A stretch of 38,436 bases of DNA from a virus: positions 1 through 38,436 of the IMG/VR virus record IMGVR_UViG_3300034019_000437. One strand, 5' to 3'. Under the pieces are notes generated by a model. The model did not search any database and had not been told where the DNA came from. It was given only the letters and a program-made list of their open reading frames with translations. Position numbers and translations under genes: made by a program. Each line of letters begins with the position of its first letter. Position 1 is the stretch's first letter. Of this stretch, positions 12,556-29,975 are shown one piece after another.

Positions 12556-12998
12556 TTCTAATATCTCATCGCGGGAATCTTGAAGGTCCTGATTCTACGA
12601 AAGAAAATGAACCTTCTTATATCGATAAGGCTTTAAGAAATTATTTTGTCGAAGTAGATTTTCGTGTTTATGAGAATGGATTTTATTTGGGACATGATAC
12701 TCCAGAATATAGTGTTTCTAAAAGTTGGTTGGAAGAGAGAAAAGATAAACTATGGGTTCACTGTAAAAATATAGATGCACTAAATTTTTGCATGGAGAAT
12801 TATTTTCATTGCTTTTGGCACGATAAAGACAGTTATACATTGACATCAAAAGGTTATATTTGGGCATATCCAGGAAAAATAACAATGGGTAAATGTATAA
12901 CTGTCATGCCAGAAAAAGTGTGGGATAAAGAGAAATATCTTTTAGAAAAATATTATGGAGTTTGCTCCGACTTTGTGAAAATGATAAATAAGAAATAA
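12552..12998 (+). CDS. Short GDPD-like (glycerophosphodiesterase-fold) protein
   Basis: A 148-residue protein with the opening motifs of the glycerophosphodiester phosphodiesterase barrel: ISHRGN near the start (His-Arg), ENEPSYIDKAL, then VEVDFRVYENGFYLGHD with Glu, Asp and a second His. A full GDPD has about 250 residues, so the barrel is either very small or incomplete. The second half (FHCFWHD, GYIWAYPGK) keeps strand-like segments. In surface-glycan loci such proteins are found beside transferases and may cleave or make phosphodiester-linked decorations. It is the last gene of the sugar block and overlaps the previous stop (ATGA). Activity is uncertain. Confidence 0.75.
   Translation: MILISHRGNLEGPDSTKENEPSYIDKALRNYFVEVDFRVYENGFYLGHDTPEYSVSKSWLEERKDKLWVHCKNIDALNFCMENYFHCFWHDKDSYTLTSKGYIWAYPGKITMGKCITVMPEKVWDKEKYLLEKYYGVCSDFVKMINKK
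12983..12990 (+). promoter_or_regulatory. Candidate late promoter element (one mismatch)
   Basis: GATAAATA differs from the T4 late core TATAAATA at one base and lies 32 bases before the ATG at 13023, at the end of the sugar block. It would place the head-internal-like gene cluster under late control. It overlaps the last codons of the previous gene and the region is AT-rich, so chance is possible. Confidence 0.3.
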
Positions 12999-13022: not shown

Positions 13023-15731
13023 ATGAAATTTAAAGATTTTTTAGCTGAAAAAGCACAGAAAAAGTGCGTTTTTGCATTCGGAAGAATGAATCCTCCAACC
13101 ACAGGTCATGCAAAACTTGTGGAAAAAGTCAAAGCAATCGCAAAAGAGAACGATGCCGATCATCTAATCGTTCTATCACACTCTCACGACTCAAAAAAGA
13201 ACCCTCTTAGTGCAAAAGAAAAGCTAAAGTACGTTAAAGCTTTCTTTCCTGGTGTCAATTTTTCCGTATCTTCTTCTGAACAACCAAACTTTTTAGCACA
13301 AGCAGCATCTTTGTATAAAAAAGGTGTGACTGAACTTCATATGGTCGGTGGATCAGATAGAACCTCAGAATATGAACGTTTATTGAATCGTTACAATAAC
13401 GTAAAAGGTCCTCATGGTCTTTTCAATTTCACGAAAATTCAAGTACATTCTGCTGGCGAAAGAGATCCTGATGCTGAAGGAGTTGAGGGAATGTCAGCAT
13501 CTAAAATGAGAGAAGCAGCAAGCAAAAGTGATTTTGCTAAATTCAAACAAGGTGTTCCATCTAATGTTTCAGATAAAATTGCAAGGGAAATGATGATGGA
13601 TGTTAGAAAAGGTATGGGTATTAAAGAAAACTTTGAAAATATGATTCAAGTCATTTTGTCTGAAGGTGTTCACGACAAAGGTATTTTCAAAGCAATGTTT
13701 CTAGCTGGTGGTCCAGGTTCTGGTAAAGATTATGTTCTTGATAACACACTAGCTGGGCATGGGCTAACCGAGATTAACTCCGATAAAGCACTTGAATTCT
13801 TGATGGACAAAAAGAATCTTGATAAGAAAATGCCAGAATCGGAAAAAGAATTAAGAAACGTTGTTCGTGGTCGTGCCAAAGATATTACTGAATTACGCCA
13901 AAAATTAGCTCTTCTTGGTAGAAACGGGCTTATTATCAATGGAACAGGTGATGATCCTAAGAAAATAGCTAGAATTAAGAAAGAACTTGAAGAATTAGGA
14001 TATGAAACAGGTATGGTCATGGTCAATACTGCTGATGAAGTATCGAAGCAGAGAAATATTGAACGTGGTCAGAGAGGTGGTAGAACTGTTCCAGAAGAAA
14101 TTCGTAAAGAAAAATGGGATGCTGTTCAAGCTGCAAGACCTGAGTTAGCAAAGATATTTGGTGACAAATATCGTGAGTTTGATAATTCAGAAGATTTGCG
14201 TACAGCATCACCTGAAATTGTAAAAGCAAAAAAAGAAGAAATGCTTGACATTTTTAAAGGCGTTCAAGAATTTGTCAAAAAACCTGCTGAACATCCAAAA
14301 GCAAAAGAATGGATTGCTGGTGAATTGAGTAAGAAAGACACTTTAGGTGTTCCCAGAAAAGGCACAGAGATGGTTGCTCCTCACGGAGATACTGCTGCTG
14401 ATGAGGCTAGAAAACTAGGTCTCCAATATTACGGCTATGGGCGCTACGGTAAGAACGGAAAAGTTACTCATCATTCTGTCCACGGTAAATTGGTACAAGA
14501 TCCAACCCATGTTCAACAACAGAAAATGGAAAAGAAGGCAGCAAGTATACCTGTAAGTGCTTCTTCACAACCATTGAAGATGAAAGAGTCTTTGGATAAT
14601 GAATTCGAACAATTATTTGAAGCTATAACTGTTAGTGTTACTGCTGATACGCCAGAAGAATTGAAACAAGCTTTTGGTATGCTTACAGGTAACGGTGAGA
14701 AAGAAGTAGAAGAAGAAACAAATGAATTTTCAGATACGAGAGCATTTGATGCATTAACTCTAGGCAAAAAAGTTCCAGTTTTTGAAGATTTGAGAAATTG
14801 GTTTAATCCGAAACATCCAGAAGGTGGATGGAAGAGAATCAATAGTAAAGGTGAAGCAATTGGTCCTTGTGCTAGAGAACCTGGTGAAGCTAAACCAAAA
14901 TGTATGTCTAACGAAAAGAGAGCACAATTAAGTAAAAAAGAACGTGCATCTGCTGTTTCCGCAAAACGTAGGCATGATCCTAATCCAGAAAGAAAAGGAG
15001 AACCTATTAATGTCTCCAATTATGGAAAAGGAAAGATTAGTGAAGAGTATACTGGCATTAAAAAAGTAAAACATGACGGATCGGTTTTTATTGCTTTGAA
15101 TGGTAAACCGAGAATCTATATACTCAGGAATGCTGCTGCGAAAGATGCACATCGAAACAACGGTGAAGTGGTCAAAGCAGAAAAAGGTTACATGGTTAAA
15201 TTAAAGGAGAGCTTAAATGTTCAATTTTCTGAAGAATTTGTTTCGCCCAAAGAATACGACGGAACCACATCCATTGGATGGAGCAATAAGAGCGGCACAG
15301 GACAAAATATTGATTCTACCCACACCATCGACCAAAGTCGAAGAGAAGAAGGAAGAATTACCATCACCGAGCATTGCGGTTGCCCCGAAAGTCACGGAAC
15401 CAGTGAAGAAGGAAGAACCGAAGAAAGTAGTGAAGACAGAGGCACCGAAACAGGTAAAAAGACCAAAATCACCCTCACAAAGATCAAAGAAAACTTCAAA
15501 CAGAAAATCAACGAAATCGACAAAGGCATAGAGCCTGGGCTTTCGATGGCTGGTGCTGGAGAAAGTCTAGGTCGCGATATGGGTGAGAAGATTAATAAAA
15601 AAGGTAAAGTAACACCTATCAAAGAATTAACTGGTGATGAAACAGGTGCAAGCATAGGTGATCAAAAAGCAGATGAGTTACAAAAGAAAGGTATCAGTCT
15701 TTCAACATTTAAAAAGAGAAATTACCTATGA
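13023..15731 (+). CDS. Multidomain protein: capsid leader, NMNAT-like domain, P-loop kinase, basic modules
   Basis: A 902-residue protein. The leader MKFKDFLAE ends at an L-x-E site. Residues 15-200 are a cytidylyltransferase/NMNAT-like domain (FGRMNPPTTGH at 19-29; MSASKMR at 157-163). L212-S213-E214 is a second possible cleavage site, followed by a P-loop kinase (AGGPGSGKD, K235) resembling zeta-toxin/polynucleotide-kinase types. Around 468-492 is a Gly/Tyr/His module. L531-F532-E533 is a third site. About 600-665 is a Cys/Lys-rich basic module (GWKRINSKGEAIGPC). Residues 732-836 are unusually rich in Ser/Thr/Glu/Gly and overlap another gene in a different frame. The tail (EPGLSMAGAG to FKKRNYL) looks ordered again. 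I infer a head-packaged polyprotein. Confidence 0.85.
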   Translation: MKFKDFLAEKAQKKCVFAFGRMNPPTTGHAKLVEKVKAIAKENDADHLIVLSHSHDSKKNPLSAKEKLKYVKAFFPGVNFSVSSSEQPNFLAQAASLYKKGVTELHMVGGSDRTSEYERLLNRYNNVKGPHGLFNFTKIQVHSAGERDPDAEGVEGMSASKMREAASKSDFAKFKQGVPSNVSDKIAREMMMDVRKGMGIKENFENMIQVILSEGVHDKGIFKAMFLAGGPGSGKDYVLDNTLAGHGLTEINSDKALEFLMDKKNLDKKMPESEKELRNVVRGRAKDITELRQKLALLGRNGLIINGTGDDPKKIARIKKELEELGYETGMVMVNTADEVSKQRNIERGQRGGRTVPEEIRKEKWDAVQAARPELAKIFGDKYREFDNSEDLRTASPEIVKAKKEEMLDIFKGVQEFVKKPAEHPKAKEWIAGELSKKDTLGVPRKGTEMVAPHGDTAADEARKLGLQYYGYGRYGKNGKVTHHSVHGKLVQDPTHVQQQKMEKKAASIPVSASSQPLKMKESLDNEFEQLFEAITVSVTADTPEELKQAFGMLTGNGEKEVEEETNEFSDTRAFDALTLGKKVPVFEDLRNWFNPKHPEGGWKRINSKGEAIGPCAREPGEAKPKCMSNEKRAQLSKKERASAVSAKRRHDPNPERKGEPINVSNYGKGKISEEYTGIKKVKHDGSVFIALNGKPRIYILRNAAAKDAHRNNGEVVKAEKGYMVKLKESLNVQFSEEFVSPKEYDGTTSIGWSNKSGTGQNIDSTHTIDQSRREEGRITITEHCGCPESHGTSEEGRTEESSEDRGTETGKKTKITLTKIKENFKQKINEIDKGIEPGLSMAGAGESLGRDMGEKINKKGKVTPIKELTGDETGASIGDQKADELQKKGISLSTFKKRNYL
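15203..15210 (+). promoter_or_regulatory. Strong ribosome binding site inside the 902-residue gene
   Basis: AAAGGAGA, with an ATG at 15217 after a seven-base gap from its AGGAG core. It lies within the coding frame of the 13023 gene, where no start for that frame is needed, so it points to a second gene in another frame. Confidence 0.55.
15217..15531 (+). CDS. Nested small gene, Pro/Lys-rich protein, overlapping another frame
   Basis: A protein of 104 residues read in the +1 frame within the 13023 gene. It has a near-ideal ribosome site upstream. The product looks natural: an amphipathic start (MFNFLKNLFRPK), a helix DGAIRAAQDKILIL, then a Pro/Lys/Glu-rich stretch (PVKKEEPKKVVK) and a very basic tail. 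Over the same bases the host frame gives a composition unlike the rest of that protein. Either the two are truly overlapping genes, or one frame arose by overprinting. A basic, proline-rich tail suggests DNA or scaffold contact, but that is speculation. Confidence 0.55.
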   Translation: MFNFLKNLFRPKNTTEPHPLDGAIRAAQDKILILPTPSTKVEEKKEELPSPSIAVAPKVTEPVKKEEPKKVVKTEAPKQVKRPKSPSQRSKKTSNRKSTKSTKA

Positions 15732-16093
15732 AACGCTATAAAGATTTTATCGCAGAGAGATGCTGGCCTGGGCATAAACCAGTACCGGGTAAAAAGCCAT
15801 ACTCTCCAGGTTCTTGTGTGAAAGAAGAAGTCAACGAAGATTGGCAAAAAGTAAACAAGGCTGATAGAACTGATGGTCTTTCACAAAAGGCTGTAAATGC
15901 ATATCGTCGTGAGAATCCTGGTTCTAAGTTAAAAACTGCTGTCACTGAAAAGAATCCAACTGGTAAGAGAGCATCACGCCGCAAATCTTTCTGCTCAAGA
16001 ATGGGTGGTATGAAAAAGCGTTTGACTAATCCAGAAAATGCGAGAGACCCGGATAGCCCAATTAACAAGGCTCTACGCCGTTGGAATTGCTGA
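15728..16093 (+). CDS. Small basic phage protein with capsid-targeting-like leader
   Basis: A 121-residue, very basic protein, ATGA-overlapping the previous stop. The leader MKRYKDFIAE is almost identical in form to the T4 internal-protein leader and ends at an I-x-E cleavage site. The mature part has a Cys-Trp-Pro-Gly start (RCWPGHKPVPGKK), then SQKAVNAYRRENPG and a KSFCSRMGGMKKRL segment, ending in RRWNC. Four cysteines spread through it suggest metal binding. I recognise it as a conserved protein of unknown function seen in many T4-like phages (I believe the DUF6321 family, named from memory). Its charge and leader fit a DNA-associated protein inside the head. That is inference. Confidence 0.8.
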   Translation: MKRYKDFIAERCWPGHKPVPGKKPYSPGSCVKEEVNEDWQKVNKADRTDGLSQKAVNAYRRENPGSKLKTAVTEKNPTGKRASRRKSFCSRMGGMKKRLTNPENARDPDSPINKALRRWNC

Positions 16094-16096
16094 TAA

Positions 16097-17413
16097 ATGG
16101 CACAGTTTAGGACCGATAAAAATAAAATAGACTCGGGGCAAGTATTCACCCGTTATGAGGTGAATATGTTGTCTGATAGTCTAACACCATCTGGTGCTAT
16201 GGTGGATGCATTCGGGCGTTTACGTTTTTCACAACCATTTACACTCTTTGATAGTTCACACAGATTTTCTGATAATGGTTTATGGGTATCGGCAAACACC
16301 GCAGGTAACAGTTCGGTTACTTTTGTAGAGAATCAAAGTACAATTGATTTGACTATTGGTACAACTGCAAATGCTGAGGTGATTCGAGAAACAACAAAGG
16401 TGTTTTCATATCAGCCAGGTAAATCTCTGTTAATTTTGAATTCTGTTACGATGAATGCACCAAAAGCAAATCTTCGTCAGAGAATTGGTTATTATAATCA
16501 AAGCAATGGTATATACTTAGAGAATGATGGCACAACAAATTATCTTGTGTTAAGGTCAAATACTTCAAGCACAGTCACAGAAACAAGAGTGTCACAATCT
16601 AATTGGAATATTGATAAGTTTGATGGTACTGGTTATTCAACACAAATTGGTGGTCCCGAACACGTTAATGGATTGGATGTAAGTAAAACAAATATTTTTT
16701 GGATGGACATTGAATGGTTAGGTGTTGGTGATGTTCGTTGTGGTTTTGTTGTGGATGGAAAAATGATACCAGTGCATATATTCCACAATGATAATAGAAA
16801 TACTGTGCCTTATATGACAACGGCATCATTACCTTTAAGAATCGAAATAAAAAATACAGGTATAACCACAAGTAATTCAACACTGAGTCAGATTTGTTCC
16901 TCTATAATGTCTGAAGGAGGATATGAATTGTTTGGCTCACAACAAGCAGTTCAAGTACCAATTACATCACCAGTAGATTTGCCCACAGCAGGAACATATT
17001 ATCCTGTTATTTCAATAAGATTAAAAACAACACCTAATCGTTTGGATGCGATTGTTATTTTAACAGCATTATCAATTTTGGGAATTTCAAATGCATATTA
17101 CAATTGGCAAGTAAGAGCAGGTGCGAATACCTCTGGTGGTGGAACATGGGTGAGTGCTGGAGATAATTCTGCGGTAGAATATAAGATAGATGGTGGATCG
17201 GTTACTGGTGGTAGAGTTTTAGCTTCAGGTTTTACTGCATCAACTAATCAAGCATCAGCACCAATTGATATTCTAAAAGAAGCATTATTCAAATTTCAGT
17301 TAGAAAGAAACGGTTTGACAAACACTCCATATGAATTAACCTTAGTCGCAGCCGCAAGTTCCAATGGTGCAGACATATATGGTTCTATGGACTGGGAAGA
17401 AGTTACTAGATAA
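16097..17413 (+). CDS. Virion structural protein of unknown role
   Basis: A 438-residue, beta-rich, Ser/Thr/Asn/Gly-rich protein with few charges, typical of a phage structural component. The start has MLSDSLTPSGAMVDAFGRLRFSQPFTLFDS, an opening I associate with structural proteins of aquatic T4-like phages. The centre alternates polar and hydrophobic residues as in beta sandwiches (YLVLRSNTSSTVTETRV). The last third (RLDAIVILTALSIL, ending SMDWEEVTR) may form an assembly surface. No signal peptide or membrane segment is evident. It begins three bases after the previous gene. It could be a baseplate, neck or decoration protein. I cannot decide which. Confidence 0.7.
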   Translation: MAQFRTDKNKIDSGQVFTRYEVNMLSDSLTPSGAMVDAFGRLRFSQPFTLFDSSHRFSDNGLWVSANTAGNSSVTFVENQSTIDLTIGTTANAEVIRETTKVFSYQPGKSLLILNSVTMNAPKANLRQRIGYYNQSNGIYLENDGTTNYLVLRSNTSSTVTETRVSQSNWNIDKFDGTGYSTQIGGPEHVNGLDVSKTNIFWMDIEWLGVGDVRCGFVVDGKMIPVHIFHNDNRNTVPYMTTASLPLRIEIKNTGITTSNSTLSQICSSIMSEGGYELFGSQQAVQVPITSPVDLPTAGTYYPVISIRLKTTPNRLDAIVILTALSILGISNAYYNWQVRAGANTSGGGTWVSAGDNSAVEYKIDGGSVTGGRVLASGFTASTNQASAPIDILKEALFKFQLERNGLTNTPYELTLVAAASSNGADIYGSMDWEEVTR

Positions 17414-17433
17414 AAACTTAAAAAGGGGCAACC

Positions 17434-18840
17434 ATGTATAACGATAAGATTCTAAAATCAGTAGCAGAGGCAGTAAAACAAGTCATGGAAGCAGAACTTT
17501 CATCAAAACAGAAAGCTATTGCTAAGATGAGTGAACCAAAACACAAGATTGATGCTGGCGATCTATCCAAACTTCGTGCTGGTCATAAGCCAGTTAAGGA
17601 AGCAGTTGTCAAAGGTAAAGGCTATGACAATCCAGAAAATGAACGTAAGGCTCCTGAAGGTAAAGTTCCAATGACAAGTTTGATGCCTGGTCATGATGAA
17701 CGTGCTGCTAAATTCCTAGCTCGTCAAGCTAAAGGTACTTTAGTTAAAGGTAAAGCAGGGAGCGCACCACAAAAAGAACCTGGAATGAAGAAAGAAGAAG
17801 TTGAGCAGGTTGATGAAGCACAAAGTCATCAAGCTAAAACTACAATGAAGCACATCAAGAATCCTACTAAAGGTGAGATGGAAGCCTCTAAGCACATGAA
17901 GTCAGGGACCGGTGGTTATCGTGATCGTATCGCAATGCTTAAATCGGCTGAAGCTCGCGGTGGTTTGAAAAAAGAAGAAGTTGAAATTGCCGAGAGTGAT
18001 GATTTAGGTCCAGTAAAGAAAAAACAAAAAACAGTTATGCTTGTTCATAAGACATCTGGAAGAGAAAAAGTTATCGTTGATACTCCAGAAAATAGAAAAA
18101 GACATGCAGAGATGGGTTTTCATCCAATCAAAGAAGAAGCTTCACAAGATGAGTTCAATGCTGAAATCAAGAAAGCACAAGATAAATCTCAGGGTAAAGC
18201 AAAAGCTGAAGTTGCAAAGCCCGCAGTTCAGGCTGTAAAACAAGAATCGGTTGAACAAACATTTACTATTGAAGATATCGAAAACTTCATGCAAACTGAA
18301 GAGTATCAACAATTAGATGAATTATCTAAAAACCTTTTAAGTCGTTATAAAAAGGCTGCTGCAAAGGATCAGTATGATGCCTTTGACAAAGATAATAAGT
18401 TAGGTATAGAACATCAAAAAGTAAAACGTTTAATGGCAAATACTAATAAGGGTGCTCCAGGAATGAGAGGTGCTAATCCTATTTCCAAAACAAACGCACC
18501 TGCCGTACACAAGGCTCTCTCAAAAGCTTCCGATGAAATCCAGAAAATGAGAGATCCTCATCAAGCTAGATTTGCCAAAAGAAGGTCAGGTATGGAATTA
18601 GCTACTAAAAAAATGGGTATTGGTGCTGGTTCCAGAGGTGTCGTAAGAGGCACCGGTAAATTAAATAAAGAAGAAGTCGAACAAATTGATGAGCGCACAT
18701 TATCTTCAGGTGAAATGGAAAAGCGCGAGAAATATGTCAAGTCTATGAAAAAGGGGCTTGAAGGATTCAAACAGCGTTATGGTGAAAGAGCAAAAGAAGT
18801 TATGTACGCTACTGCTACCAAAATGGCTAAGAAGGACTAA
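17434..18840 (+). CDS. Repetitive head-internal-type polyprotein with EEVEQ linkers
   Basis: A 468-residue Lys/Glu/Ala-rich protein with an AAAGGGGC ribosome site. It opens with a helical region (MYNDKILKSVAEAVKQVME). It contains repeated linkers that end at possible prohead-protease sites: KKEEVEQVDE (ending 128), KKEEVEIAE (187), QQLDE (296) and NKEEVEQIDE (420). After the third and fourth sites come helical repeats of the form LSKNLLSRYKKAA and RTLSSGEMEKREKYVKSMKK. Between linkers are basic, glycine-bearing modules. Similar linkers occur in the next gene, so the two are related in design. Most likely these are capsid-core or packaged proteins cut during head maturation (inference). The exact functions of the modules are unknown. 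Confidence 0.8.
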   Translation: MYNDKILKSVAEAVKQVMEAELSSKQKAIAKMSEPKHKIDAGDLSKLRAGHKPVKEAVVKGKGYDNPENERKAPEGKVPMTSLMPGHDERAAKFLARQAKGTLVKGKAGSAPQKEPGMKKEEVEQVDEAQSHQAKTTMKHIKNPTKGEMEASKHMKSGTGGYRDRIAMLKSAEARGGLKKEEVEIAESDDLGPVKKKQKTVMLVHKTSGREKVIVDTPENRKRHAEMGFHPIKEEASQDEFNAEIKKAQDKSQGKAKAEVAKPAVQAVKQESVEQTFTIEDIENFMQTEEYQQLDELSKNLLSRYKKAAAKDQYDAFDKDNKLGIEHQKVKRLMANTNKGAPGMRGANPISKTNAPAVHKALSKASDEIQKMRDPHQARFAKRRSGMELATKKMGIGAGSRGVVRGTGKLNKEEVEQIDERTLSSGEMEKREKYVKSMKKGLEGFKQRYGERAKEVMYATATKMAKKD

Positions 18841-18842
18841 GT

Positions 18843-20291
18843 ATGAAAAAATTTTCGAAAGTTGCAGATTCGGTGAGAGGCATCACCGAATCCAAGGATG
18901 AAGATAGAGGCGAGTACGACTACGAAGGTGATATGGCTATGTCCGATCTTCGTAGTATCATGCATAATGCTCAACGTCTTCATGATATGCTAGAGCCAAA
19001 CACTAATTTGCCTGAATGGTGCCAGTCTAAGATTACTTTAGCTGAAGATTATATTTCTACAGTTGCAAACTATATGACTGCTGAAATGAACGAAGAATAC
19101 ATTAAAGAGTCGGGTGGTGAAGTTGTATTCAAAAAAGGTGAAAATCATATTGAAAAATATGGTGAAGATGCATTTGCGTTATATAAAAATGGCAAAAAAC
19201 AAAAATATTACACTTCTATTGAAGCAGCAAAATCTGCGATGAATGAAGAAGTTGAATATCTCGAAGAAAAAAATGCACCAACAAATCCTGCATTGTGGTC
19301 CCGCGCAAAAGCACTAGCTAAATCTAAATTTGATGTGTATCCTTCTGCTTACGCAAATGGTTGGGCTGCTAAGTGGTACAAATCAAAAGGTGGTGGCTGG
19401 AAGTCTGTAAGTGAAGAAGTTGAACAACTCGATGAGATGCCTGGTGCAAATATGGATACTCGCGCAGTTCATTCCCATTTGAAGAAAAAAGGATGGAAGT
19501 TGTCGAGATCATCAGGCAGCCATGATGTATACACACATTCTGAAGCTGAACATCATATTTCCGTTCCTCGTCACAAACAATTAAAAGCTCCTTTAGTGAA
19601 AGGCATTTTGAAGCAAGCTGAGATTAAAGAGAGTGAAATTATTGTGACACCCAGAAAGAATATTAAAGCACCGGCTGCACCAGGAACTTATGCTCATGAT
19701 CTTGCAAGCGGCAAATATGCAAAATATGGTTTCACTAAATCTGGCAAAGAAACTGCTGCTGCAAAGCGTGAAAGAATGAAAAAAGAAGAAGTTGAACAAC
19801 TTGATGAAATCAGTCAAGAAACAAAAAAATCTTATGTTCAAAAGGCTAAAGCAGAAGTTAAAGAATTAAAGCCTCATGTAAAAGGTGAATATGGAAGTTT
19901 TGCTAAAAATATTATTGCTCGTAGACAAAAAGGTATCAAAATGGCTACCGAACAAGCTACAGCATCCGGTGCACATGAGGGTCGTTTCATATCTGGTCAG
20001 CCAAAAGTTCCTTTTAAGAATCCCACAATAGTTTCTTCAGAAAATAAAAAAGATCCTATGCAGAGGGTTAAAGAACTAGCTAAAGCCGCAGCGAAAAGAC
20101 AAGCTGGAATCAAAGAAAATATGGAGCCAGAAGACGCTGAAGATAAAGTGAACACTGCTGCTAAAAGAAGCCTTTCAAAGACGGCAGGTATGGTAAAAGA
20201 TTTAGCTAAAAAAGGTAAAGATAATAAAAAAGAAAAGCCAGAAACTTTTCAATCTGAACCTGAACTCTCTTCACAAATCGTAAAAGTATAA
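18843..20291 (+). CDS. Repetitive polyprotein containing a HicA-like module
   Basis: A 482-residue protein starting two bases after the previous stop. Modules in order: an acidic helical N-terminus (DMAMSDLRSIMHNAQRLHDM) with I-T-E at 14-16; I-K-E at 87-89; a small module ending at EEVEYLEE (142); a module rich in Trp and Tyr (ALWSRAKALAKSKFDVYPSA, 150 on) ending at EEVEQLDE (198); a HicA-like RNA-binding module at about 204-261 with the GSH histidine at H227, followed by I-K-E at 263; a Gly/Ala region ending at EEVEQLDE (322); then a helical repeat (ISQETKKSYVQKA). The acid-ended linkers fit (L/I)-x-E protease sites. I infer cleavage into small packaged proteins. Confidence 0.82.
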   Translation: MKKFSKVADSVRGITESKDEDRGEYDYEGDMAMSDLRSIMHNAQRLHDMLEPNTNLPEWCQSKITLAEDYISTVANYMTAEMNEEYIKESGGEVVFKKGENHIEKYGEDAFALYKNGKKQKYYTSIEAAKSAMNEEVEYLEEKNAPTNPALWSRAKALAKSKFDVYPSAYANGWAAKWYKSKGGGWKSVSEEVEQLDEMPGANMDTRAVHSHLKKKGWKLSRSSGSHDVYTHSEAEHHISVPRHKQLKAPLVKGILKQAEIKESEIIVTPRKNIKAPAAPGTYAHDLASGKYAKYGFTKSGKETAAAKRERMKKEEVEQLDEISQETKKSYVQKAKAEVKELKPHVKGEYGSFAKNIIARRQKGIKMATEQATASGAHEGRFISGQPKVPFKNPTIVSSENKKDPMQRVKELAKAAAKRQAGIKENMEPEDAEDKVNTAAKRSLSKTAGMVKDLAKKGKDNKKEKPETFQSEPELSSQIVKV

Positions 20292-20294
20292 ACT

Positions 20295-20302
20295 CATAAA
20301 TA
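20295..20302 (+). promoter_or_regulatory. Candidate late promoter element (one mismatch)
   Basis: CATAAATA, one base off the T4 late core, ends 21 bases before the ATG at 20324, with AAGGAGA in between. The spacing leaves just enough leader for the ribosome site, as in many T4 late genes. The downstream gene looks like an abundant structural protein, which fits. Confidence 0.4.
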
Positions 20303-20323
20303 TAAAAAATAAGGAGATTTTAA

Positions 20324-20914
20324 ATGTCACTTTGGGCAAAATCAGATTCAGCTAATGCTGCACCAAAATTTACCGGTATTTCTACTGGTATTGCAGCAAG
20401 CGCCAATGGTGAGACAGTATTTGGTAATACACAAATCGGCGCGTTTCAAACAGGATACAAAGGTACTGTCGGTATCTTCGGTGTTGACGTTACTGAACAG
20501 TCCGTCGCACAAACAAGCAATGTCAAACCGCAACATGCTGGTTGGGTTGCTGTAATGAAAGGAACAGGTCCTATTGCATCACTCACTGCAAATGCGAATT
20601 CTTATTCACCAGATTCGATTACTGGTACAGTTTATTTGACATTTACTGGTGGTGGTACAGGAACAACAGCAGCCAATGCACAAATCGTTGCAAATGCTAC
20701 AACAGGGTTAATCACCGGTATTCAAATCAATAGTGGTGGTAACTACGAACGTTCTCCAGTTGTAGGTACAGTTGCTAACTCTAACGTTGCTATCACGATA
20801 ACAATGGGTGGTCGTGCAGGTAGAACGCAAGTCGAAACTCTTGTTGCTATGGGTACTATCGGAACTCAAGGTATTGTTGATGCTTCCGATGATACGATTT
20901 TTAAAGATAGCTGA
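20324..20914 (+). CDS. Virion structural protein (Gly/Thr-rich, beta-type)
   Basis: A 196-residue protein with a textbook AAGGAGA ribosome site and a candidate late promoter. The start MSLWAKSDSANAAPKF is a pattern I recognise from conserved structural proteins of aquatic T4-like phages. The body is rich in Thr, Gly, Ala and Asn (YLTFTGGGTGTTAANAQIV), with low charge and strong beta tendency. TGIQINSGGNY resembles glycine-turn repeats seen in phage surface proteins. The C-terminus GGRAGRTQVETLVAMG is the other conserved-looking part. A head decoration or tail-associated role is likely but not decided by the sequence. The next gene starts on its last base. Confidence 0.72.
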   Translation: MSLWAKSDSANAAPKFTGISTGIAASANGETVFGNTQIGAFQTGYKGTVGIFGVDVTEQSVAQTSNVKPQHAGWVAVMKGTGPIASLTANANSYSPDSITGTVYLTFTGGGTGTTAANAQIVANATTGLITGIQINSGGNYERSPVVGTVANSNVAITITMGGRAGRTQVETLVAMGTIGTQGIVDASDDTIFKDS

Positions 20915-21300
20915 TGAATTTTAAAAACTTTATTAAAGAAGATTATGAGCAATCTACCGGTGATGTGCCGGTAGATTCATCTTCATTAGACTCTTCGGTT
21001 GTTGAAAAGTTGAATCTGATGTTGAATGTTGTATTGGAAGATCCAGTTTACACACCAGAAACTGGAATTACTTTGGTCAGAAAAATACTCATGGTTGAAA
21101 ATTTAGATTTTCATCCAATATATGATTTAAGTTCTGAAGGAGAAGAAATAGTTGAAGCTATTGATGGTACAGATAAGTATATTTACATTCTGTATTATCC
21201 AACCGATGATGGTTATTACGATTTTTACGCTGAAGTGACTGATGAAGAAGGTGCAGAAGAGATGCTAAATTCAGGAGTCGAAGGCGAATCTGAGAAATAA
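20914..21300 (+). CDS. Acidic small protein with capsid-targeting-like leader
   Basis: A 128-residue, strongly acidic protein starting on the last base of the preceding stop. The leader MNFKNFIKE ends at an I-x-E site, followed by DYEQSTGD. The rest has a hydrophobic helix (VEKLNLMLNVVLED), a beta region (KYIYILYYPTDDGYYDFYAEV) and an acidic tail (EGAEEMLNSGVEGESEK). The acidic character contrasts with the basic leader-bearing proteins at 15728 and 4709. Codons 13-22 form a perfect 10-base-pair stem. The function is unknown. The leader suggests targeting to the head interior. Confidence 0.75.
   Translation: MNFKNFIKEDYEQSTGDVPVDSSSLDSSVVEKLNLMLNVVLEDPVYTPETGITLVRKILMVENLDFHPIYDLSSEGEEIVEAIDGTDKYIYILYYPTDDGYYDFYAEVTDEEGAEEMLNSGVEGESEK
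20951..20977 (+). other. Perfect 10-bp inverted repeat near a gene start
   Basis: AATCTACCGG, a seven-base loop TGATGTG, then CCGGTAGATT, forming a perfect stem. It lies 37 bases into the gene at 20914, just past the strongly expressed-looking structural gene. There is no U-run behind it, so it is not a standard terminator. An RNA processing, stability or attenuation element is possible. Confidence 0.5.
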
Positions 21301-21695
21301 TGTCTTTTGATGATTTAACAAGTGACAATTTTGTCATGTATGCAATTAAAGCATATGACAAACCTAATTGCATAATGAGTGAGTTTAGAGAAGACATGAA
21401 GAAGTTCAATTATTTGAAGAGGCTTTTTCGTAGGTATAGAAAAGAAGGTGAGTTAAAAGAGAGACTTGTAATAAATCATTTGATTGTTTTATATAATGTG
21501 TTTGGAGTTGAACCTGCGACAAGAATGTTGTTCTATAAAATTATTGAAGATGATTATTCAGCGTTAAAAACGTATTTGTTATTTCTAAATAATATGCCGA
21601 ATGTAGTAAAAGGAATAAAAGGAAGAGATATTCACTCTTCGGATATTCCAGTTGATATGAGAATAGCAGAAGTATTGAGGAATAATATTATATGA
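21300..21695 (+). CDS. Conserved phage protein of unknown function
   Basis: A 131-residue, mostly helical protein whose ATG overlaps the previous TAA. The first half (DNFVMYAIKAYDKPNCIMSEFREDM) and the centre (ERLVINHLIVLYNVFGVEPATRMLFYKI) look highly conserved. I recognise this as a protein found in many T4-like phages of aquatic bacteria, without a known role. It ends RGRDIHSSDIPVDMRIAEVL. No catalytic motif, signal peptide or membrane span is apparent. Its placement among structural and small late genes suggests a virion-assembly task. That is only context. Confidence 0.78.
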   Translation: MSFDDLTSDNFVMYAIKAYDKPNCIMSEFREDMKKFNYLKRLFRRYRKEGELKERLVINHLIVLYNVFGVEPATRMLFYKIIEDDYSALKTYLLFLNNMPNVVKGIKGRDIHSSDIPVDMRIAEVLRNNII

Positions 21696-21919
21696 TGATT
21701 CAGTTGAACCCACCGATACCGATGGTGACACCAAAAGGAAGCGGATGGGCATTTTTTATGATAGAGAGAAGTCAAGAACACCATATTGAATGGGTGGTGT
21801 TTCTAGATGATAATGGGCAATGCTGGACATTTCAAAATCCAGAAATTAGATTGCAAACAAACTATACAATGAATAGAAGAAATAAAGACACAACATTTAG
21901 GTTTGCAAATGAAGATTAA
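21692..21919 (+). CDS. Small protein of unknown function
   Basis: A 75-residue protein starting at ATG ATG, where the first ATG overlaps the previous stop by four bases. The core is GSGWAFFMIERSQEHHIEWVVFLDDNGQ, a beta-hairpin-like sequence, followed by CWTFQNPEIRLQTNYTMNRR. Small proteins with this look are common in T4-like phages, between the conserved 131-residue protein and the next gene. I cannot assign a function. The next gene starts 11 bases before its end. Confidence 0.7.
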   Translation: MMIQLNPPIPMVTPKGSGWAFFMIERSQEHHIEWVVFLDDNGQCWTFQNPEIRLQTNYTMNRRNKDTTFRFANED

Positions 21920-22241
21920 AGAAGATGCAGTACCAACAAATGCAGTCGCCGGTGGTGCGATTGCTGGTATTGGTGTTCCTAATCCAAATCTACCCAATCA
22001 AGCAGAACCTGGAATTAAAAAGAAGTTTGCAGGTTCTAGAGTATTTAAAGTTCCAACAAAAAATTTCGTAATGGCAAGAATGCTCAAACGAAAGTATGCA
22101 CGATTCGAATCGTATCTAGGTGATCCAGTAATTGCAAAAGAGATTTCAGAATATGCAAATAAAAACTGGAAAGAAGGCATTGTACTTGAAGATGAACAGA
22201 CAGGCGCAATGATGTACCTTAGATATGGTCGAGGGCGGTAA
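21909..22241 (+). CDS. Small basic phage protein of unknown function
   Basis: A protein of 110 residues. The ATG at 21909 is preferred over the TTG two codons upstream. It starts with MKIKEDAVPTNAVAGGAIAGIG, a Gly/Ala-rich segment found near the start of a conserved protein of T4-like aquatic phages. This is followed by KKKFAGSRVFKVPTKNF and a mixed helix-strand core (EGIVLEDEQTGAMMYLRYG). It is rich in Lys and Arg. The role is unknown. It contains a 14-base palindrome (22100-22113) that its codons explain. The stop overlaps the next ATG by one base. Confidence 0.72.
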   Translation: MKIKEDAVPTNAVAGGAIAGIGVPNPNLPNQAEPGIKKKFAGSRVFKVPTKNFVMARMLKRKYARFESYLGDPVIAKEISEYANKNWKEGIVLEDEQTGAMMYLRYGRGR

Positions 22242-22675
22242 TGTGGATATTAGAGTGGCTTCCTAACTGGATATTCTACGCAATACTGTTTATAGGTGTA
22301 ATAGGTTTCTTAATAACCTATTTGCTTAAATTCATTCCAATCCCCGCACTTTACATGTACAAAGCTCCGATACAAATCGTATCGGTTATTTTTATTGTCA
22401 TTGGTGTTTATATGGCGGGTTCAATAGCAAACAATGAATCGTGGCTTGCAAAAGTAAAAGAAGTTGAAGCTAAACTTGCTGAAGCAGAAGCAAAAGGTGC
22501 AGTTGAAACAGTTAAGATTGTTGAAAAAGTTGTAGTTCAACAGAAAGTTATAAAAGAAAAAGGTAAAGATATTATCCAGTACGTTGACCGCGAAGTTGTT
22601 AAATTTGATAATAAATGTGAAATACCTCCTGCATTCGTAGATGTACACAATAAAGCAGCAGAGAAAATACAATGA
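22241..22675 (+). CDS. Inner-membrane spanin-like protein
   Basis: A 144-residue protein with two hydrophobic stretches (about 8-30 and 41-62) followed by a long charged coiled coil (EVEAKLAEAEAKGAVETVKIVEKVVV) and a soluble tail with one Cys. It directly precedes, with a four-base overlap, a small lipoprotein gene and then the endolysin. That is the arrangement of an i-spanin and o-spanin pair that fuses inner and outer membranes in the last step of Gram-negative lysis. Classical i-spanins have one membrane span. Two spans here leave the topology open, so the spanin role is probable rather than certain. Confidence 0.7.
   Translation: MWILEWLPNWIFYAILFIGVIGFLITYLLKFIPIPALYMYKAPIQIVSVIFIVIGVYMAGSIANNESWLAKVKEVEAKLAEAEAKGAVETVKIVEKVVVQQKVIKEKGKDIIQYVDREVVKFDNKCEIPPAFVDVHNKAAEKIQ
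22367..22385 (+). other. Stem-loop with U-rich tail inside the spanin-like gene
   Basis: CCGATAC, loop AAATC, GTATCGG, then TTATTTTTATT. This looks like a weak intrinsic terminator but lies inside a coding region, ahead of the lipoprotein and endolysin genes. It could reduce read-through into lysis genes or be a by-product of the codons. Confidence 0.25.
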
Positions 22676-22935
22676 GAATTGTTTTATTATGCACACTTTT
22701 ATTATTAGCGGGATGTTCTACGCCAGTGCCAATAAAACCTAAATTTCCTACTGCACCGGATATGTTGCTTGAGCCTTGCGCGGAACTTAAAAAATTAGAA
22801 ACAGAAGTTAAATTGAGTGATATTGCAAAAACTGTAACTGATAATTATATGTTATATCATGACTGCTCATTGAAATCTAAAGCATGGATTGAATGGTATA
22901 AAGTACAAAAAAAGATTTTTGAGGATGTCAAATGA
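22672..22935 (+). CDS. Small lipoprotein, probable o-spanin
   Basis: An 87-residue lipoprotein. The signal peptide MRIVLLCTLLLLAGC ends in a lipobox LAGC, with the lipidated Cys at 15. The mature part begins STPVPIKPKFPTAPDM, proline-rich as in Rz1-type proteins, then is helical and Lys/Glu-rich. It starts four bases inside the spanin-like gene and ends four bases into the endolysin gene. With its neighbour it would bridge inner and outer membranes at lysis. Lipid attachment is clear from the motif. The o-spanin role rests on context. Confidence 0.78.
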   Translation: MRIVLLCTLLLLAGCSTPVPIKPKFPTAPDMLLEPCAELKKLETEVKLSDIAKTVTDNYMLYHDCSLKSKAWIEWYKVQKKIFEDVK

Positions 22936-23552
22936 TTACACAAGAACAATTAAAACAATTATTGCCAAAGAATCCTTATGTCTCACACTGGCACAAGGCA
23001 CTTGAACAATTATTTCCTGACTACGAGATTAATACACCACACAGAATGGCTGCATTCATAGCGCAATGTGCTCACGAATCCGCAGGATTTACTGCACTGG
23101 TTGAGAATTTGAACTATCGTTGGCAATCATTGAGAAAAGTATTTCCAAAATATTTTCCAGATGATGCAATCGCACAAGATTACGCAAATCGTTCAAACAA
23201 ACAAGAAGCAATAGCAAATAGAATCTATGCAAGCCGTATGGGTAATGGTGATGAAGCATCAGGTGATGGCTATCGTTTTAGAGGGCGTGGATTAATTCAA
23301 CTTACTGGTAGACATAATTATACTTGGTTTGCTGCATCACTTGAAATATCTCCAGAAGAAGCTTCCGAGTATCTAACAACATTTGAAGGTGCTGCACAAT
23401 CTGCTTGTTGGTTTTGGGAAAGCAACAAACTCAATCAATGGGCTGACAAAGGTGATATTCTTACATTAACAAAAAGAATCAATGGTGGGACGATAGGTTT
23501 AGATGATCGTATTAAACATTACGAACATGCTCTACACGTTCTGGGGGTATAA
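22932..23552 (+). CDS. GH19 chitinase-like endolysin
   Basis: A 206-residue peptidoglycan hydrolase of the glycoside hydrolase family 19 fold, which cuts the sugar backbone of murein. AAFIAQCAHESAGF carries the catalytic Glu (E49). The signature YRFRGRGLIQLTGRHNY follows, then the SACWFW segment and LTKRINGGTIGLDDR near the end, all typical of phage GH19 lysins. There is no signal peptide, so it would need a holin to reach the wall. Several candidate membrane proteins follow. It overlaps the lipoprotein stop by four bases and ends one base before the next gene. Confidence 0.93.
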   Translation: MITQEQLKQLLPKNPYVSHWHKALEQLFPDYEINTPHRMAAFIAQCAHESAGFTALVENLNYRWQSLRKVFPKYFPDDAIAQDYANRSNKQEAIANRIYASRMGNGDEASGDGYRFRGRGLIQLTGRHNYTWFAASLEISPEEASEYLTTFEGAAQSACWFWESNKLNQWADKGDILTLTKRINGGTIGLDDRIKHYEHALHVLGV

Positions 23553-23846
23553 ATGGTGAGCGATAGAAAACTATTTCTTGGGCTTCTTATTTTATTATTA
23601 CTTCCTCTTACACTTGCGATATTTGGTGGGGATCGTTTTAGATATCCTTGTCAAGACCCTAAGAATTGGGATAAAGAAATGTGTAAGATGCCGCAGTGTG
23701 ATGTAACGAGAACCTGCCCAGAGCATATTTTTAAAGGTCAACGTGATCCAAGACTAGGACCACCAGAAACGAGAACTCAGCCAATGTCACAAACTGGGCA
23801 AACGTGTCAAGCCTGCCCACCGCAAGGAGCTAATAATGCAAAATAA
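23553..23846 (+). CDS. Small protein with one membrane anchor, Cys-rich tail
   Basis: A 97-residue protein. After three basic/polar residues comes a strongly hydrophobic segment (LFLGLLILLLLPLTLAIF), then a Cys- and Pro-rich soluble part with CQDP, CKMPQC, TCPEH and TCQACPP, giving about six cysteines. The tail would face the periplasm, where disulfides could form. It follows the endolysin and precedes other membrane proteins, so a role in lysis timing or in the envelope is possible. No family is recognised. The TATAAATG just before its start is probably only the ribosome spacer. Confidence 0.68.
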   Translation: MVSDRKLFLGLLILLLLPLTLAIFGGDRFRYPCQDPKNWDKEMCKMPQCDVTRTCPEHIFKGQRDPRLGPPETRTQPMSQTGQTCQACPPQGANNAK

Positions 23847-24291
23847 TGCACCAATAGTTTATACTGAAGAACAGTTGATGGCAAGATTGAAATTCTTCAT
23901 TGGAGTTTGTCTTGCACTAACATTAACAGGTATCGTATTCGTTGTATTGTATTCGATTATCTTTGTAACACAACCATTGAATGCAATGTCACCAATCGAT
24001 CAAAAGTTCTTTGAGTTGATTGTTCCGATTGCAACATTCTTGACAGGCACCTTATCAGGTATCATGTTAGCTGGATCAAAGAAAGAAGATCAAGAAGCAA
24101 TGTTGGCAGCACAAAAGCAGGCTACTGAATCTTTCAAAACTACAATGGAAGAAACAAGAAAGCAAGCACCAGAACCCAGACCTGAAAAGAAAGAACCCTC
24201 ATTAGGAATACAGTCGGTTCCAGCGCAACAACCCTCACCAGGATTTGGTGGTAAATTAGCACCACCTGCTGCTCCTCAGCCGGAGATTTAA
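23836..24291 (+). CDS. Membrane protein with Pro/Gln-rich tail, holin-like candidate
   Basis: A 151-residue protein with two predicted spans (FFIGVCLALTLTGIVFVVLYSII, and FELIVPIATFLTGTLSGIML), then a Lys/Glu/Gln helix and a long proline-rich tail (PEPRPEKKEPSLG, APPAAPQPEI). Two spans plus a charged cytoplasmic tail is a known holin layout, although the tail is longer than usual. It starts 11 bases inside the previous gene. I recognise such proteins as recurrent in lysis regions of T4-like aquatic phages. Direct evidence of hole formation is lacking. Confidence 0.68.
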   Translation: MQNNAPIVYTEEQLMARLKFFIGVCLALTLTGIVFVVLYSIIFVTQPLNAMSPIDQKFFELIVPIATFLTGTLSGIMLAGSKKEDQEAMLAAQKQATESFKTTMEETRKQAPEPRPEKKEPSLGIQSVPAQQPSPGFGGKLAPPAAPQPEI

Positions 24292-24292
24292 A

Positions 24293-24529
24293 ATGTTAGA
24301 ATCTATTTTTCAAGATAGCATTAATGGTTCAATAAGTAGCAAAAGAGTTGTCACTTTTCTGGCTTTTCTAGTCTGTGTAGGAGGTTTTATTGCTGATATT
24401 ATGGGACATAAAGTTACTCCAGCATTATTTGATTCAATGATGTATATCGTAGTTGCTGGTTTAGGATTCACAGCATCCGAGAAATTTGCTCCAAAATCAC
24501 CACCACCTTCACAACCATTACTAAAATAA
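24293..24529 (+). CDS. Small two-span membrane protein, holin candidate
   Basis: A 78-residue protein with two hydrophobic spans (VVTFLAFLVCVGGFIADIM and DSMMYIVVAGLGFTASEKF) around a short polar turn, ending in a Pro/Ser-rich tail. Size and layout suit a class II holin or a related phage membrane protein. It starts one base after the preceding stop. Of the small membrane proteins here it has the most classical holin size, but the sequence carries no unique holin motif. Confidence 0.68.
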   Translation: MLESIFQDSINGSISSKRVVTFLAFLVCVGGFIADIMGHKVTPALFDSMMYIVVAGLGFTASEKFAPKSPPPSQPLLK

Positions 24530-24539
24530 GGATATAAAT

Positions 24540-24755
24540 ATGAAACTGATTATCACAGCAGCAATCATAGGTTTAATTCCTATTCTGAGCTACCATAATA
24601 TTTCTTTTGCAGCAGAAACAAAAAGAGTTTGTGTCGATAAAGTGACAAACGATGGTAAAAAAGTTCTCGATAAAGAAGGAAAGCCAGTGCAAGATTGTAA
24701 AGAGATTAAAGTTCATCAAAAACTAGAGGGTACGAAAGTTCCTGAAAAGAAATAA
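24540..24755 (+). CDS. Small secreted protein of unknown function
   Basis: A 71-residue protein with a signal peptide (MKLIITAAIIGLIPILSYHNISFA, likely cut after SFA) and a short, Lys/Asp-rich mature part with two cysteines (RVCVDK and VQDCKEI) that could form a disulfide in the periplasm. AAGGA lies just upstream. The sequence TATAAATA overlaps the start codon and cannot serve this gene as a promoter. It is located in the lysis region, between the holin-like gene and the coiled-coil protein, whose ATG overlaps its last base. Confidence 0.68.
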   Translation: MKLIITAAIIGLIPILSYHNISFAAETKRVCVDKVTNDGKKVLDKEGKPVQDCKEIKVHQKLEGTKVPEKK

Positions 24756-25189
24756 TGGACGAGAAAGAGGCAATTCAAATGAAGGTTGACGTAGGCGTAC
24801 TTAAAACACAAGTCGCCTCGTTGACCCAACTCTGTGATAAAATGGATAAGGTTATTGAGAAACTTATGGACAATCAAGATAAAGCAGTTGATCAAATCTA
24901 TACCGATATGGACAGAAGAAAAAATGATACTGTCATGGATATAAAAGAATTGCACTCTCGCATAACAACAGTTGACAGAAACCTATCAGATAAGATAGAA
25001 TTAACAGAGCGAAGAATTATGGAAGAATTTAAATCGCTCCGTGAACATATCGAAGAACACAATAAAAAAGAAGACGGTGAAATTAAAAAGATTTTGGAAT
25101 GGAAATGGATGGCTGCCGGAGGTATTGTTGCTCTCGCATGGTTGCTTTCTAACGTAAATCTTGATATGATTACTAAAATCTTTAAGTAA
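24755..25189 (+). CDS. Coiled-coil protein with C-terminal membrane anchor
   Basis: A 144-residue protein made of long heptad-like helices (VDVGVLKTQVASLTQLCDKM to LREHIEEHNKKEDGEI), ending in one membrane span (WMAAGGIVALAWLLSNV). This resembles XhlA-like or tail-anchored lysis accessory proteins. The tail anchor would leave the coiled coil in the cytoplasm or at the membrane face. It is the last gene of the lysis region. The 17 bases before the primase gene hold only a T-rich stretch. Confidence 0.68.
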   Translation: MDEKEAIQMKVDVGVLKTQVASLTQLCDKMDKVIEKLMDNQDKAVDQIYTDMDRRKNDTVMDIKELHSRITTVDRNLSDKIELTERRIMEEFKSLREHIEEHNKKEDGEIKKILEWKWMAAGGIVALAWLLSNVNLDMITKIFK

Positions 25190-25206
25190 CCTTTTCTTTT
25201 TATATT

Positions 25207-26235
25207 ATGAGTCTAAGTGTCGATCTAAAGTATACCCTCCTTTTATCTCCACGTTTTGAAAAGTTTCAGAGAAAGTCTGATTACCTTTTCAATGTGCGTT
25301 GCCCAATTTGTGGAGATTCCCGCAAAAACAAAAGCAAGATGCGCGGGTACATTTACCGCAAAGGTAATGATTTGTTTTATAAATGCCATAACTGTGGTGC
25401 TGGTATGTCTGTGGGTAATCTCATCAAACAAGTTGATGATTCAATCTATAAGTCTTATGTACTAGAGAGATATAAATCGGGTGAAATTAACGGTGCTAAT
25501 ACTCGGGCACAAGTATTCAATGTACCCTCACCTAGATTCGGTAAAATAGATGCACCTACGTTCGATAATGCTGAAAGATGTGATTCTCTAGCTGATAAAC
25601 ATTTCTGTAAAATATATTTGACACGCAGACATATACCTACAGAATATCATAACAAACTATACTTTACCGCAAATTTTAAAAAGTTTTGTGATGAAGTATA
25701 TCCTAATCACGACAAAGAAATTACACCCGATGCAAGGCTAGTAATTCCGTTTTTTGACGAGTATAATAATCTGATTGCGGTATCAGGTCGCGCATTGGTT
25801 ACATCCGATGAGAAACTTCGGTATGTCACCATTCGCACAAATGAAAGTGAAGGTAAACTAATCTACGGTATGGATCGTGTAGACTTATCTGAGCCAGTTA
25901 AGATTGTAGAAGGTCCTATTGATTCTTTATTTCTGAAAAATTGTGTTGCTTCAGGTGATTCAAGTTTGAGCATTGCAGGTAAAAATATTAACTCAAATAA
26001 AAAAATATTAATTTTCGATAATGAGCCTCGGAATAAGGAAATCGTGAGTCTCATGGAAAAAGCAATTAAATCAATGAATTATGTTGTTGTTTGGCCAGAT
26101 AATATTCGACAGAAAGACATCAATGAGATGATTATGTCGGGAATTTCAACAGATGAAATTGAAGCGATTATAAGTAATAACACATTTTACGGTTTGGAAG
26201 CGATTACAAAATTTGTTTTTTGGAAGAAAATATAA
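25207..26235 (+). CDS. 61: DNA primase, gp61/DnaG family
   Basis: A 342-residue primase that lays the RNA primers for lagging-strand synthesis and acts with the gp41 helicase. The zinc finger is CPIC at 32-35 and CHNC at 60-63. The Toprim catalytic core has KIVEGPIDSLFL with the conserved Glu at 235, then KILIFDNEPRN for the metal-binding acids. Length and order match T4 gp61. It lies about 22 kb downstream of gp41 rather than beside it, a common distance between these two genes in T4-like genomes. The thyX ATG overlaps its stop. Confidence is high. Confidence 0.93.
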   Translation: MSLSVDLKYTLLLSPRFEKFQRKSDYLFNVRCPICGDSRKNKSKMRGYIYRKGNDLFYKCHNCGAGMSVGNLIKQVDDSIYKSYVLERYKSGEINGANTRAQVFNVPSPRFGKIDAPTFDNAERCDSLADKHFCKIYLTRRHIPTEYHNKLYFTANFKKFCDEVYPNHDKEITPDARLVIPFFDEYNNLIAVSGRALVTSDEKLRYVTIRTNESEGKLIYGMDRVDLSEPVKIVEGPIDSLFLKNCVASGDSSLSIAGKNINSNKKILIFDNEPRNKEIVSLMEKAIKSMNYVVVWPDNIRQKDINEMIMSGISTDEIEAIISNNTFYGLEAITKFVFWKKI

Positions 26236-26918
26236 TGAAAGTAAAGTTAATTAGTTCAAGTAAACCATCTGCTGAATTTCAGAAAGAAGGTATCTATACG
26301 GCACAAGAGTTGATTGCGTTTTGTGCTAGAGTTTCTAACCCAAGCAATCAATTCAATTTGGAAACATCTGAAAAATTGATTCGTTATTTGATTAAACATA
26401 AGCACTGGAGTCCCCTGGAGATGGTATCTGCTTGTTTGGAAATCGAAACGACCCGAGATATTGCTAGGCAAATTCTCAGGCATCGTTCATTTTCCTTTCA
26501 GGAATTTAGTCAGAGATATGCAGATCCCACTAAAGATTTGAATTTTGTTTTGCGTGAAGCACGGTATCAAGATACTAAAAATAGGCAAAACAGCGTTGAT
26601 ATTGATTTAAGAAACGATGCGGATCGACAAATCGCATATCAATGGGAAATGATGCAGCAGCGTGTATTGACGGAAGCCAAATCTGCATATGAATGGGCTA
26701 TCAGTAAAGGTATTGCAAAAGAGCAAGCAAGAGCCGTTTTACCAGAAGGTCTTACAGTGTCCAGAATTTACATGAATGGCACCTTACGTTCATGGGTCCA
26801 TTTTATTGAGTTGCGTAGTGGTAATGGCACACAAAAAGAGCACCGTGAAGTTGCTAGAGAATGTGCGAAAGTGATTGCTGAGGTGTTTCCTCTTTCATCT
26901 GAATTTGTAGAACAATAA
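26235..26918 (+). CDS. thyX: Flavin-dependent thymidylate synthase
   Basis: A 227-residue ThyX, which makes dTMP from dUMP using FAD and methylene-tetrahydrofolate. The hallmark RHRSFSFQEFSQR at 82-94 is the ThyX motif with Gln in the place of the more usual Asn. RAVLPEGLTVSRIYMNGTLRSWVHFIELR near the end carries the other conserved part. The start is the ATG in TAATG at the primase stop. A TTG five codons upstream is less likely. It belongs with nrdA, a thioredoxin and nrdB that follow, a set that redirects nucleotides into phage DNA. Confidence 0.93.
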   Translation: MKVKLISSSKPSAEFQKEGIYTAQELIAFCARVSNPSNQFNLETSEKLIRYLIKHKHWSPLEMVSACLEIETTRDIARQILRHRSFSFQEFSQRYADPTKDLNFVLREARYQDTKNRQNSVDIDLRNDADRQIAYQWEMMQQRVLTEAKSAYEWAISKGIAKEQARAVLPEGLTVSRIYMNGTLRSWVHFIELRSGNGTQKEHREVARECAKVIAEVFPLSSEFVEQ

Positions 26919-26936
26919 AAATAATCTGGAGTAAAA

Positions 26937-28730: not shown

Positions 28731-28732
28731 AA

Positions 28733-29957: not shown

Positions 29958-29975
29958 TTTTTGAAAGGAAAAAAA

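Follow-up and report, generated by a model that had tools for sequence, protein, structure and literature searches.

Residues 199-263 of a 482-aa phage protein almost certainly constitute a HicA domain, and the polyprotein in which this domain is embedded is, very probably, head cargo that is cut by a gp21-type prohead protease, as judged by comparison with the sequences of relatives. The protein is encoded in the window, that is, the whole stretch of DNA analysed here, a 38.4-kb IMG/VR fragment of a T4-like phage that lacks a gp21 gene of its own. The borders within the 482-aa polyprotein are suggested by (L/I)xE sites after E16, E89, E142, E198, E263, E322 and E425, and its parts are as follows (here and below, a slash within a sequence marks a predicted cut).

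18843..20291, + strand: HicA-bearing modular polyprotein, 482 aa (ORF; Pfam)
18891..19109, + strand: module A (EYDYEGDM..., residues 17-89), predicted helical hairpin, shuffled independently between polyproteins
19269..19436, + strand: module B (KNAPTNP...YPSAYANGWAAKWYKSKGGGW, residues 143-198), also shuffled independently, with a related segment in the S-CREM2 virion protein gp160
19413..19436, + strand: N-terminal linker EEVEQLDE (residues 191-198), predicted gp21 cut after Glu198 (LDE/M)
19437..19631, + strand: HicA module, residues 199-263, 65 aa, 7.3 kDa, pI 10, net charge of about +6 (Pfam, PHROG, AlphaFold, Foldseek)
19515..19517, + strand: codon of Gly225, counterpart of the essential Gly22 of Burkholderia HicA (alignment; PMC3969222)
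19521..19523, + strand: codon of His227, counterpart of the catalytic His24 of Burkholderia HicA (alignment; PMC3969222)
19623..19631, + strand: C-terminal predicted gp21 site IKE263/S (E-I-K-E at 260-263)
19785..20117, + strand: second EEVEQLDE linker (residues 315-322) and the next module (ISQETKKSY..., residues 323-425)
20118..20288, + strand: C-terminal tail, residues 426-482, ...FQSEPELSSQIVKV, common to most HicA polyproteins and a possible docking signal

Identity and distribution of the HicA module

The translation of 19437-19631, MPGANMDTRAVHSHLKKKGWKLSRSSGSHDVYTHSEAEHHISVPRHKQLKAPLVKGILKQAEIKE, corresponds to residues 199-263. The Pfam profile HicA_toxin (PF07927) matches the 482-aa protein with 49.2 bits (cut-off 27; E=5.5e-13) and the 65-aa module alone with 53.7 bits (E=2.3e-14), and PHROG 353, labelled 'toxin', is matched as well (E=2.1e-14). 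The AlphaFold model of the module, built from 14 relatives (pLDDT 82.8), has a predicted alpha-beta-beta-beta-alpha fold (H8-17, E21-26, E29-33, E40-44, H51-61) of the dsRBD-like type that is characteristic of HicA (PMC3969222). In a Foldseek search, the best seven PDB matches of this model are all HicA proteins, the top one being the Burkholderia HicAB complex 6g26 (TM 0.79/0.84, rmsd 1.0). The toxicity of Burkholderia HicA requires Gly22 and His24 (Butt et al., PMC3969222). A profile search against PDB sequences aligns H227 (module residue 29) with position 24 of Burkholderia HicA(H24A) (PDB 4c26), the mutated catalytic histidine, and Gly225, His227, Pro242 and His244 are unchanged across 36 distinct modules. 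The preliminary description of this DNA had read residues 199-263 as a complete HicA-type domain with H227 as its characteristic histidine, and the profile match, the fold model and the structural matches all agree with this assignment. Codon comparison of the cassettes yielded a median dN/dS of 0.17 over 509 pairs, indicative of strong purifying selection, and the cassettes contain no stops.

IMG/VR was scanned with the full 482-aa protein and then with the module alignment. The second scan detected the module in 57 loci which, after merging of duplicates, amount to 44 distinct flanked HicA cassettes. These occupy varied positions in polyproteins of varied composition, encoded by at least two different genes, and the polyproteins belong to T4-like phages. 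One gene type has the shared tail ...FQxDPELSSxI... at its end; the DUF6321 gene forms the second type, and in L020, L027, L094 and L095 the cassette sits there rather than in the long polyprotein gene. The cassette tree, which is based on 62 columns and is poorly resolved, mixes these gene contexts. Exactly one HicA domain per genome, always embedded, was found in 15 of 15 relatives, and many polyproteins of the same class come without the module. The cassette is absent from the cultured phages in INPHARED. The 1432-aa HicA polyprotein of L005:4411-8706 seemingly carries an intein-like insert inside module B (KFDVYP/CVPLDSLAIAKSG...ENETWVMIQNGLITITGN/SAYANGWAAKWYK, with slashes here marking the junctions).

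The cassette appears to lack a partner antitoxin, as the preliminary description had also held. No HicB-like neighbour was noticed in the window; among the relatives, several of which exceed 130 kb and the records of which may be incomplete, no HicB above the cut-off was detected with PF15919 (19 relatives; a single stop-interrupted match scored below the threshold) and no match with PF05534 (15 relatives).

Predicted gp21 sites at the module borders

The T4 prohead protease gp21 cuts after Glu in L/I-X-E (PMC9026906). As had been noted from the ORF, the HicA module of the 482-aa protein is preceded by EEVEQLDE (191-198) and ends with E-I-K-E (260-263). The (L/I)xE rule is loose, and the protein contains nine matches, two of which (E58 and E68) lie inside the predicted helical module A, so that the case for gp21 sites rests on comparative evidence and not on the single protein.

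All 44 cassettes begin with Met directly after (L/I/V)-x-E, and [LIVM]xE occupies the same C-terminal place in 28 of the 33 distinct junctions. The ends of shared segments fall within three residues of [LIV]xE in 44% versus 16%, and the starts in 26% versus 16%; the weaker enrichment at the starts is explained by the linker itself being shared, and therefore each module border was tested separately, for HicA and for four unrelated modules (GRxSQRHPLEGH, xNxPTxPxxW, DLRNWF and LSxxTLxxY). Upstream of these five modules, every one of the 140 distinct contexts, which are not independent events because of shared ancestry, has Glu at P1, whereas P3 is nearly always Leu or Ile and P2 is variable; the background composition of the polyproteins is 9.6% Glu and 8.9% Leu plus Ile. 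Modules that are preceded by differing residues (LQE/GR, LSE/GR, IKE/DLRNWF, ITE/S) retain P3 and P1 only. Inside the HicA module, there are no (L/I)xE matches, either here or in 36 distinct relatives, compared to a mean of 4.9 in shuffled sequences, which seems only mildly unexpected.

The protease itself (PF03420) is encoded in 10 of the 19 relatives, including every record of at least 87 kb (one such gene, L144, shares a contig with the HicA gene L095), and gp23 is present in relatives, with an N-terminal region that contains LxE-type propeptide sites followed by Ala or Thr. At the HicA border, P1' is Met, versus Ala or Thr in gp23, which counts against release by gp21. Sites of the kind that typifies T4 internal head proteins are thus found at the module borders, as sites in the sequence. 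The earlier claim that HicA is framed by prohead-protease-type sites stands as far as the cassettes, the junctions and the invariant P1 Glu are concerned, and is weakened by the looseness of the rule, with its nine matches in one protein.

Capsid-targeting sequences and virion context

Upstream of the 482-aa protein, the window encodes the following companion proteins.

17434..18840, + strand: upstream companion polyprotein of the same class, with linkers EEVEIAE, EEYQQLDE and EEVEQIDE
16097..17413, + strand: virion structural protein, PHROG 1645, head and packaging
15728..16093, + strand: DUF6321 protein with the T4-like capsid-targeting sequence (CTS) MKRYKDFIAE/R, without a HicA cassette
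13023..15731, + strand: 902-aa polyprotein with the CTS MKFKDFLAE/K, an NMNAT/cytidylyltransferase, a zeta-toxin-like kinase, and then modules after LSE/G and LFE/A

In the T4 CTS, residues 4 and 7 are involved in targeting, and residues 8 and 10 in processing (PMC9026906). The CTS motif is present at the N termini of four window proteins (starting at 3471, 13023, 15728 and 20914), with 4 observed versus 0.03 expected. In L094 and L095, HicA is located directly behind a CTS (MKTFKAFISE and MKSFTQFINE) that matches the T4 positions 4, 7, 8 and 10. The 482-aa HicA protein starts without a canonical CTS (MKKFSKVADSVRGITE). The products of 3471-4709 and 20914-21300 have the CTS-like N-termini MNFKDFIVE/S and MNFKNFIKE/D, which make their packaging likely. 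Another candidate for head cargo is the 13023-15731 product, in which a second domain of the toxin-antitoxin type, a zeta-toxin/AAA_33 kinase (E=3.7e-10), follows the NMNAT-like domain and the CTS.

Over 13023-29957, the window shares synteny with the gp154-gp164 region of S-CREM2, a cyanophage available in culture. Published mass spectrometry of S-CREM2 virions identified both gp154 and gp160, the latter a multi-module protein (PMC10665884). The gp154 protein is homologous to the N-terminal part of the 13023..15731 polyprotein, with its NMNAT region, and gp160 has two module types in common with the HicA-class polyproteins (72 aa at 43% identity, and the YPSAYAxG module) as well as an ISE/G joint, and contains no HicA module. 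Several cyanophages have relatives of gp160 that bear the annotation 'structural protein'. Hence the head-type context of the 482-aa protein that had been proposed from its sequence is backed by homologous modules in the S-CREM2 virions and in genes annotated as structural. The authors of the S-CREM2 (PMC10665884) and S-SCSM1 studies warn that such proteins were possibly co-purified.

Six of the seven S-CREM2 proteins with the CTS motif are virion proteins (p=7e-4), among them a SAM hydrolase, a Cas9-like protein, a kinase and an NMNAT, with the caveats that the match in one of the six, a baseplate protein, may be due to chance, and that the pattern was set after some of the N-termini had been read. 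In the S-CREM2 genome (OR473000; L162, L164, L166), a T4-like CTS is located near the N-terminus of gp6 (SAM hydrolase), gp12 (Cas9-like), gp13, gp14 (kinase) and gp154 (NMNAT), all of them detected in virions, and the passages of the published account that were consulted contain no mention of a CTS on these proteins. A search of S-CREM2 for EEVE-type linkers found few, so this consensus belongs to the uncultured relatives.

Elsewhere in the window, by eye, 5051-12998 is a long sugar/surface-polysaccharide cluster, apparently an uncommon feature for a T4-like genome, with genes for an epimerase, a methyltransferase, a HAD phosphatase and a nucleotidyltransferase whose C-terminal part is RpiB-like. 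The gene of a PstS-like phosphate-binding protein lies at 29961-30983. The phage PstS was uninformative with respect to the host, the best match among pattern-selected hits being to Rhizobium, at about 51% identity. The late promoter TATAAATA shows no enrichment near the 482-aa gene, and PADLOC returned no credible defence match.

Proposed mechanism, alternatives and known systems

The HicA fold, the catalytic residues, the conserved sites, the shuffling of cassettes, the lack of HicB and the presence of gp21 in relatives jointly support the following account, in which packaging and cleavage of the 482-aa protein, injection, RNase activity and the target are what we infer. The cargo polyprotein of a T4-like phage would be made late and join the prohead core, where, inside the head, a gp21-type protease would cut at (L/I)-x-E between the modules. 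Cuts after Glu198 and Glu263 would free a 65-residue, strongly basic HicA mRNA interferase that would enter with the DNA and cleave host or host-defence transcripts at the start of infection. The phage would need no HicB because HicA acts in the next host. We consider this account as a whole, a capsid-delivered mRNA interferase released by gp21, reasonably probable, and the balance tips modestly towards the module being both injected and enzymatically active. Against an enzymatic role, a protein with the HicA fold might bind RNA yet leave it intact.

The module might instead be packaged and freed by gp21 only to serve as a basic nucleic-acid-binding head protein that aids DNA condensation or head loading. 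Its strongly basic character (pI 10) and dsRBD-like fold would suit such a role, and the internal proteins of T4 are likewise basic, as well as abundant (PMC9026906). However, charge neutralisation needs no catalytic pair, and yet Gly225 and His227, together with Pro242 and His244, are invariant in the 36 modules; furthermore, a structural role fits poorly with a single copy per genome and with the many same-class polyproteins that lack HicA. The invariant catalytic pair combined with purifying selection speaks for an RNase rather than a simple DNA-binding protein, and we regard the DNA-binding role as unlikely.

An injected HicA could also be a counter-defence decoy that binds host HicB or competes with host HicA. 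The active site of HicA is covered by HicB in complexes that are known or modelled (PMC11373665), HicAB contexts point to phage defence (PMC10865869), and the internal proteins that T4 injects inhibit enzymes of host defence (PMC12373910). But a decoy does not require strict conservation of the catalytic His, and titration of HicB would free the host toxin, which makes this a rather improbable function.

Whether the EEVEQ(L/I)DE linkers are cleavage sites at all can be questioned as well, given that they are longer than gp21 requires and are conserved in the EEVEQ part too; they might be capsid- or scaffold-docking motifs of a polyprotein that stays whole. The modules that follow LQE, LSE, IKE or ITE and keep only P3 and P1, and the LxE propeptide sites in gp23 of the same phages, speak for cleavage, so that we deem docking linkers quite improbable. 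If HicA were translated separately in the infected cell, as a free toxin that starts at the internal ATG of Met199, this would account for the invariant Met at the module start, perhaps an ancestral start codon, but a Shine-Dalgarno-like tetramer was found in 0 of 37 upstream sequences versus 16% of control internal ATGs, and this very improbable explanation was rejected for want of a ribosome-binding site. That the cassette is an inert relic or an assembly artefact, as could be suspected from the window alone, a metagenomic fragment, is scarcely conceivable in view of 44 distinct instances over many contigs, the dN/dS of 0.17 and the lack of stops.

If capsid delivery of HicA as an active enzyme is correct, the host would receive a ready mRNA interferase from the phage ahead of any phage gene expression, and the capsid proteases of DNA phages would have a polyprotein-processing role much like that of the proteases of RNA viruses. 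Injected effectors among the many 'hypothetical' proteins of T4-like phages could then be sought by a simple sequence rule, based on the (L/I)xE linker and the CTS, and HicA would gain a context beyond toxin-antitoxin operons. We lean slightly towards a still broader view, in which environmental T4-like phages possess a general plug-in cargo system: interchangeable cassettes (HicA, NMNAT, zeta-type kinase and others) between prohead-protease sites would be co-packaged at a fixed ratio, diced in the capsid and injected together, with HicA as the first known example of an RNase toxin that is carried as such cargo without an antitoxin. The cassettes also suggest a natural route for loading capsids with several proteins.

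The HicA mRNA interferases of hicAB modules (PF07927; 6g26, 4c26, 4p78, 1whz, 5yrz, 6hpb) resemble the cassette in fold, size, the Gly/His pair and basic charge. In contrast to these, the cassette resides within a polyprotein, between predicted protease sites and next to several kinds of partner modules, and lacks the adjacent or fused HicB that defines a hicAB module. The Gerdes 2024 survey lists 14 HicA contexts, none of which is a polyprotein cassette, and its text is silent on virions, polyproteins and proheads (PMC10865869). In the literature searched, no report of HicA in virions was found, nor any virion proteomics of a phage that bears the cassette.

The T4 internal proteins IPI-IPIII and Alt share with this system the CTS-type N-termini (in the companion proteins and the HicA genes of L094 and L095), the L/I-X-E sites for gp21 and the presumed injection; however, each of the T4 IPs is a small stand-alone protein from which a propeptide is removed, whereas a polyprotein of the present type holds several cargoes with sites between them. 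Neither HicA nor toxins are mentioned in a study of the T4 proteins that are injected (PMC12373910). The polyproteins described here combine several disparate domains in one chain, as do the polyvalent proteins of phages (Iyer et al. 2017, PMC5512222), which contain conflict domains and for which packaging and injection are likewise presumed. For polyvalent proteins, processing is predicted to be mainly by embedded zincin peptidases (PMC5512222), whereas the present polyproteins point to a prohead protease that is separate from them, and have cassettes of about 60 aa; neither in the 482-aa protein nor among the listed families of 64 polyproteins did Pfam identify an embedded peptidase domain, although not all polyvalent proteins need to have one. 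HicA is not mentioned in the text of the polyvalent-protein paper (PMC5512222). Thus, T4 internal proteins and polyvalent effectors are known, and what is new is the HicA payload and the site-delimited cassette layout.
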